Of a DNA stretch of 64,000 bases, positions 49,849 through 50,798 are shown piece by piece. Made by a program: the position numbers and the translations under genes. The notes below the pieces were generated by a model. That model saw nothing but the letters and a program-made list of their open reading frames with translations. It did no database searches and was not told the origin of the DNA. How positions within the stretch are numbered: position 1 is the first letter of the stretch; every line of letters begins with the position of its first letter. The DNA lies in the NCBI GenBank assembly GCA_027490955.1, contig JAIXXB010000006.1, positions 88,051 through 152,050 of the forward strand. The letters are read 5' to 3'. This DNA comes from Rhodobacter sp. (GTDB taxonomy: Bacteria; Pseudomonadota; Alphaproteobacteria; Rhodobacterales; Rhodobacteraceae).

Positions 49849-50175
<327 letters not shown>

Positions 50176-50331
50176 TCATGTTCCTTGACTGTTTGGCGGC
50201 GTGATACGCCAAGGGCGCGGGAATTTCCAGTGCAGATTGAAAAAAATGCGTATGGCGCGCGTCTGCTGCGCGTCTGGCATCTGTATGGCATCCGTCCCGA
50301 CAGCGCAGTTTGTGGCCCGCCCAAGCTGGCC

Positions 50332-50364
50332 TTGCAAAGGGCGGCGGATGTTCTATATTTGTTC
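50332..50364 (+). promoter_or_regulatory. Promoter with LexA (SOS) box upstream of the OB-fold gene
   Basis: -35 TTGCAA (50332-50337), 16-bp spacer, -10 TATATT (50354-50359). The alphaproteobacterial LexA box GTTC-TATATTT-GTTC (50350-50364, GTTCN7GTTC) covers the -10 exactly. The expected start of transcription is at about 50366, at the ATG of the next gene. Confidence 0.65.
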
Positions 50365-50366
50365 TT

Positions 50367-50798
50367 ATGACCCTGATCCGCCCCACCCCCACCCCCAGCA
50401 CCGATTGGATGGCGCAAACCCCTGCGCCCGACACGTGGCCGCGCCCGCCTGCCGCCTTGCCCGCGCATCGGCTGGTCGAGCCGCGCGTGGGTGCAAAAGT
50501 TTGCGTGGCAGGTCTGGTTTTGGTGCGCCAGCGCCCTGGCACGGCCAAGGGGGTGATTTTTCTGACGCTAGAGGATGAAACAGGCACGGCCAATGTGGTG
50601 GTCTGGGCGCAGACCTATGAAAAATATCGCCGCGCGGTGATTGCAGGGCGGCTTTTGCGCGTGACGGGGCGTTTGCAGCGCGACTGTAACGTGGTGCATG
50701 TCGTGGCCGAACAGATCGAAGATATATCCTATATGCTGGATCGGTTGCTGACATCGGGCTTTGCCCCTGATGGGGTGCGCGCGGGCGATCAGCCCTAA
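50367..50798 (+). CDS. Free-standing OB-fold protein matching the DnaE2 C-terminus
   Basis: A 143-residue protein. Residues about 42-125 (VCVAGLVLVRQRPGTAKGVIFLTLEDETG ... GRLQRDCNVVHVVAEQIEDIS) match the C-terminal OB-fold of the error-prone polymerase DnaE2 (ImuC). No polymerase, ImuA or ImuB sequence precedes it in any frame. The ATG at 50367 has no Shine-Dalgarno and lies where the predicted promoter would start transcription, so it may be leaderless. Either a dnaE2 remnant placed beside its SOS promoter by deletion, or a maintained SOS-induced DNA-binding protein. Ending and frame are intact. Confidence 0.75.
   Translation: MTLIRPTPTPSTDWMAQTPAPDTWPRPPAALPAHRLVEPRVGAKVCVAGLVLVRQRPGTAKGVIFLTLEDETGTANVVVWAQTYEKYRRAVIAGRLLRVTGRLQRDCNVVHVVAEQIEDISYMLDRLLTSGFAPDGVRAGDQP

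Follow-up and report, generated by a model that had tools for sequence, protein, structure and literature searches.

The small gene that begins at 50,367 in the window (the whole 64-kb stretch of Rhodobacter sp. DNA that was analysed) is one half of a split DnaE2, the other half being an OB-less polymerase core encoded on another contig of the same genome, so that the core and OB genes together make one DnaE2. DnaE2 is an SOS mutagenesis polymerase in many bacteria. In this case its OB domain, which binds single-stranded DNA, has been detached, yet kept as a gene of its own across an abundant bacterial family.

One DnaE2 in two unlinked genes

Against error-prone polymerase models, the product of the window gene, whose stop codon ends at 50,798, aligned solely with the C-terminal OB segment (E 7e-31 with NCBIfam NF004225, positions 943-1041 of 1047), the DnaE1 models giving E values of 1e-7 or weaker, which identifies the domain as a DnaE2-type OB. 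The Pfam OB fold PF01336 was assigned to it as well, and the proposal of the sequence-only reading that the 143 residues correspond to the DnaE2 C-terminal OB domain only was thus borne out. The AlphaFold2 model displays a five-strand OB fold (mean pLDDT 85.6, most of the domain above 90), for which Foldseek returned OB folds including RPA and Stn1-type DNA-binding ones. An alternative longer in-frame start, TTG, lies at 50,310; conservation begins only at the ATG. A search of the genome gave the window gene as its single OB match. The features of the locus are listed in Table 1.

Table 1. Features of the OB gene, its promoter and its divergent neighbour (window coordinates)
Feature	Position	Strand	Evidence or remark
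2Fe-2S ferredoxin gene, divergent neighbour of the OB gene	49849..50172	-	divergent in 133/133 loci where both were found
-35 hexamer TTGCAA	50332..50337	+	sequence; most of the 103 upstream regions aligned have T(T/G)G here
LexA box GTTC-N7-GTTC, GTTCTATATTTGTTC, covering the -10	50350..50364	+	exact box conserved in orthologous loci
-10 hexamer TATATT inside the box spacer	50354..50359	+	sequence; TAT.TT kept in 103 upstream sequences
Standalone DnaE2 OB-domain gene	50367..50798	+	143 aa, apparently leaderless; dN/dS 0.061 vs nearest relative
N-terminal motif WPRPP	50436..50450	+	residues 24-28 of the OB protein
OB fold proper	50493..50723	+	residues 43-119; PF01336, AlphaFold2 five strands, Foldseek

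The DnaE2 core of the same genome (G000, contig C34) comprises the PHP, Pol3, finger and HhH regions with an intact catalytic motif; no OB domain was found in it by domain search, and it ends where the OB should begin. On the 1047 positions of NF004225, the core covers 4-939 and the window OB gene 943-1041. Core and OB of the split genomes were not found in one polypeptide, the two genes lying on different contigs or far apart in complete chromosomes, as in genome G045 where the core stands at 25 kb, imuB at 507 kb and the OB gene at 2,921 kb.

The break falls at the same point throughout. All 41 split-type core loci examined stop after an HPxxLLRxxLTP-like stretch, where fused DnaE2 continues into the OB, and the LTP-like ending is present in 39/41 cores vs 0/24 fused DnaE2; the core of the window's own genome ends in an odd tail, not in the usual LTP. 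On the other side, WPxPP was found in 52 of the 57 standalone OB proteins and in none of the last 250 residues of 24 full-length DnaE2, the fused Albimonas protein also having it. Both motifs mark the new ends of the two proteins and could, as a guess, be docking elements. The PDIDxDF catalytic motif is present in all 65 proteins compared.

The sequence-only reading had considered that a lineage might have kept the OB fold alone as a DNA-damage protein, which does not agree with a genome that also encodes ImuB, an ImuA-like protein and a core lacking the OB; a scenario in which DnaE2 was lost and only its OB kept was ruled out once the core search had found that core. Regarding the full imuA-imuB-dnaE2 cassette whose search in the same genome had been suggested, its members were recovered, at separate loci however and not as a cassette. 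ImuB is encoded on contig C29 and the ImuA-like match, a weak one (E 9e-15), on C6. No operon of imuA-like, imuB, core and OB genes was found, these lying on different contigs or at distant positions, with imuB near the core in some genomes only. Both partners are diverged, with about 42-46% (ImuB) and 31-39% (ImuA) identity to the proteins of a cassette from the same bacterial family. Matches of ImuB from split genomes (L072-L077) to canonical ImuB are interrupted near residue 165 of the latter, which suggests a lineage-particular insertion of roughly 40 residues in the split-lineage protein.

Co-occurrence of core and OB, and a proposed reassembly

Comparison was made with 150 Rhodobacteraceae genomes, one per genus. 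In about 57 of them the counterpart of the window gene is a short ORF of its own (55-79% identity), most others having a full-length DnaE2, and diverged standalone versions with boxes were found in three further genomes (G084, G033 and G091). With OB and core genome sets assigned by hand from two homology searches, 57 genomes have both, 3 the OB only, 3 the core only and 87 neither (Fisher p = 9e-34, a value which overstates independence since the genomes are related and the co-occurrence is largely one vertically inherited event). Five of the six mismatches are explained by assembly gaps or contig edges: among the core-only genomes, the ferredoxin neighbour is missing from the assembly of G044, the contig of G064 ends about 220 bases beyond ferredoxin and that of G099 starts inside it, and in the OB-only genomes G061 and G119 pieces of the core lie at the ends of contigs. 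Consequently, the only real exception is G051 (7 contigs, rated 100% complete), in which no DnaE2 core was found and the OB gene, ImuB and the ImuA-like protein are present. The OB may therefore sometimes persist alone.

Beyond the family, 385 class-level genomes gave no convincing case of spread to other alphaproteobacterial families, their short matches being mostly at contig edges as judged by coordinates. One genome outside Rhodobacteraceae (G448, L157) carries a broken dnaE2 remnant. Carriage of the standalone gene on plasmids was not seen: the 826 plasmid records that gave a match all stayed below 80% query coverage, and among the plasmid matches listed most are annotated as error-prone DNA polymerase. 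Two genomes carry the split set plus a full-length DnaE2 (G035, C4, L065; G540, C16, L268), the full-length protein at G035 C4 appearing to be the copy on the 126,304-base Dinoroseobacter shibae plasmid.

We consider it likely that DnaE2 was split once and that the OB, induced separately in the SOS response, is a mutasome subunit held to the core by non-covalent contacts. In this scheme, the core, OB, ImuB and ImuA-like genes, which lie at separate loci and whose starts all carry a LexA-type box, would all be induced when LexA is cleaved upon DNA damage; the OB protein would then attach to the core without a covalent bond, or the two would come together on ImuB/ImuA and the template, and we infer that this would give a complete and active lesion-bypass polymerase for whose activity the OB may be required. 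In the published AlphaFold model (PMC12926913), DnaE2 contacts ImuB mainly via its PHP and HhH regions and not via the OB, so that the mutasome could still assemble with the OB detached. An extension of this scheme, which we hold as tentative and rather doubtful, is that the OB is a regulated switch: the core would be inactive or poorly processive alone, leaderless and SOS-controlled translation of the OB would time the mutagenic polymerase, and one OB could possibly serve the split core, a plasmid-borne DnaE2 or DnaE1.

Alternatively, the OB could have parted from DnaE2 long ago and now work alone as an SOS-induced ssDNA-binding protein or adaptor, with the core working without it. Such independence would account for the retention of the OB gene in G051, where a detectable core is absent, for its lack of linkage to the core and for the Foldseek matches to DNA-binding OB folds, and several DnaE2 and other C-family polymerases are reported without an OB domain in PMC3919608. 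It is nevertheless unlikely, given that 57 of the 60 genomes with an OB gene have a matching OB-less core, the mismatches being mostly of assembly origin as described above, that 30 positions conserved at 90% or more are common to standalone and fused OB domains, and that OB and core are both SOS-boxed.

Promoter, LexA box and conservation of the OB gene

The promoter hexamers of Table 1 are separated by a spacer of 16 bases, and the ATG sits two bases past the LexA box and seven past the -10. The exact GTTC-N7-GTTC box, searched in either orientation, has this one occurrence in the 64-kb window. An exact box near the OB start was found in 54/57 orthologues of the one-per-genus set and in 74/79 named loci, which include Rhodobacter, Gemmobacter, Ruegeria, Roseovarius, Shimia, Salipiger, Tropicimonas and Rhodovulum; it is missing near the start in 3/57 and 5/79 loci respectively. 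Of the 103 distinct upstream sequences whose box lies 1-3 bases before the start, 78 have a spacing of exactly 2 bases between box and start; a Shine-Dalgarno-like motif was seen in none of the 103. The -35 T(T/G)G, the -10 TAT.TT and the box are conserved upstream of the OB orthologues, and the flanking sequence is not.

These comparisons agree with the sequence-only reading on the TTGCAA-16-TATATT promoter with a LexA box over its -10, on an overlap too precise for chance, same-place exact boxes in orthologues being far above chance expectation, and on SOS control, which the orthologous promoters strongly back. Membership of the OB gene in the alphaproteobacterial LexA regulon is strongly supported by the conserved GTTC-N7-GTTC in its promoter, from which we infer LexA binding, and a LexA homologue is encoded in the same genome. 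Moreover, the OB gene seems to yield a leaderless mRNA, as had also been suggested, the +1 being predicted at the start codon from the placement of the -10 and from the lack of a Shine-Dalgarno motif in the upstream sequences.

The partner genes likewise carry LexA-type boxes, at the start of imuB in 13/13 loci and of the imuA-like gene in 19/19. At the cores, an exact box was found in 16 of 41 scanned stretches, and in 37/41 a box lies close to the start with no more than one mismatch, one-mismatch boxes with an ATTC half site being common there; the exact-box background amounts to 0.03 per 220 bases across all examined loci, real boxes included. Single boxes do arise by chance within a genome, and the SOS control of the OB gene is read from sequence. 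Still, that the overlap of box and promoter is fortuitous and the OB gene outside SOS control is very improbable when the exact box is kept at a fixed spacing in nearly all orthologues while the flanks vary, and when the partner genes are boxed as well.

The nearest named relative of the window gene comes from a Pseudorhodobacter antarcticus MAG. Codon comparison indicated purifying selection on the OB gene, with a dN/dS of 0.061 between the window gene and its nearest relative (L162) and a median of 0.156 over 63 pairs; together with an ORF intact across 57 genomes, the dN/dS test proposed by the earlier reading gave no sign of relaxed constraint. At this locus the junction between the ferredoxin and OB genes is conserved, and the same neighbourhood is seen in relatives that have no OB gene. 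An internal deletion of imuA-imuB-dnaE2 leaving the promoter joined to the polymerase tail, as had been supposed, is contradicted by this conserved junction and by the survival of the core elsewhere; a deletion within a local cassette was ruled out by the OB-less core elsewhere in the genome and the conserved neighbourhood in relatives. That the window gene is a decaying leftover of such a deletion, to which its sequence limited to the DnaE2 tail might point, can be practically discounted in view of its low dN/dS against the nearest relative, its intactness in 57 genomes, a conservation across genera that refutes decay, its dedicated conserved promoter and conserved location, and a DnaE2 core still present in its own genome.

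Relation to known systems and origin of the split

The two genes resemble DnaE2/ImuC (C-family, DnaE2A group, NF004225) in that core and OB align to one model, with the catalytic motif and LexA-type boxes; outside the split clade, however, every clear relative sampled has DnaE2/ImuC as a single polypeptide, in contrast with the two unlinked genes found here. All members of the ImuA-ImuB-DnaE2 cassette are likewise present and LexA-boxed in the split genomes, whereas the cassette is usually an operon and its members are here mostly apart, with diverged ImuB and ImuA. In cyanobacteria, a split DnaE is joined by a split intein. There too a C-family polymerase is made from two genes, but the standalone OB proteins consist over their whole length of a short N-terminus and the OB fold and hold no intein; joining would therefore have to be non-covalent. 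Intein-split sequences are mentioned in PMC3919608. In DnaE2X systems, according to PMC12926913 and PMC6511836, ImuB is split into an inactive Y-family polymerase and a standalone ImuB-C, so that a mutasome protein is in two pieces as well, though it is ImuB there and the polymerase here.

Neither the passages of PMC12926913 that sort DnaE2 systems into classes and treat split ImuB nor those of PMC3919608 on DnaE2 without an OB domain mention an OB encoded by its own gene; a phrase search of the literature, with many subscription papers outside its coverage, was likewise empty. This looks like a two-piece mutation-making polymerase for which no earlier description was found, priority not being proven. 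The split allows a clean test of the contribution of the OB to lesion bypass and mutation, with the OB removed or supplied in trans; surveys, for their part, may label split polymerases as OB-less or the small OB gene as an orphan.

In a tree of the cores cut before the OB, one branch parts split from fused proteins (SH-aLRT 98). In a second tree, from which three long branches including G033 and G091 were excluded, the exact place of these two being unsure, the split proteins and Albimonas form one group (SH-aLRT 99) with the sequences of other families outside. Since the split cores form one clade, fission probably happened once in Rhodobacteraceae, and with a single branch between split and fused cores there is no need to assume repeated independent fissions.

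Within the split group, Albimonas and G084 take the basal position. In Albimonas donghaensis (L232, L266), DnaE2 is still one ORF, in which a 361-residue low-complexity linker rich in Ala, Gly, Pro and Arg separates core and OB; it lies between ...LLRSRLSPG and DWPRPP...OB, that is, between both junction motifs of the split lineage. This fused DnaE2 is likely an intermediate; its single ORF may instead represent a secondary fusion. The OB gene of G084 (C42, L060) is separate and has a LexA box; its product starts with a long stretch of low complexity and keeps the ancestral DnaE2 C-terminal tail, and the gene is not beside ferredoxin. The simplest history would be linker expansion, then fission, then a move beside ferredoxin with trimming. 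The full-length outgroups and Albimonas fit such a stepwise fission, and a possible route to gene fission is thereby shown, in which a linker expands before the two parts separate.
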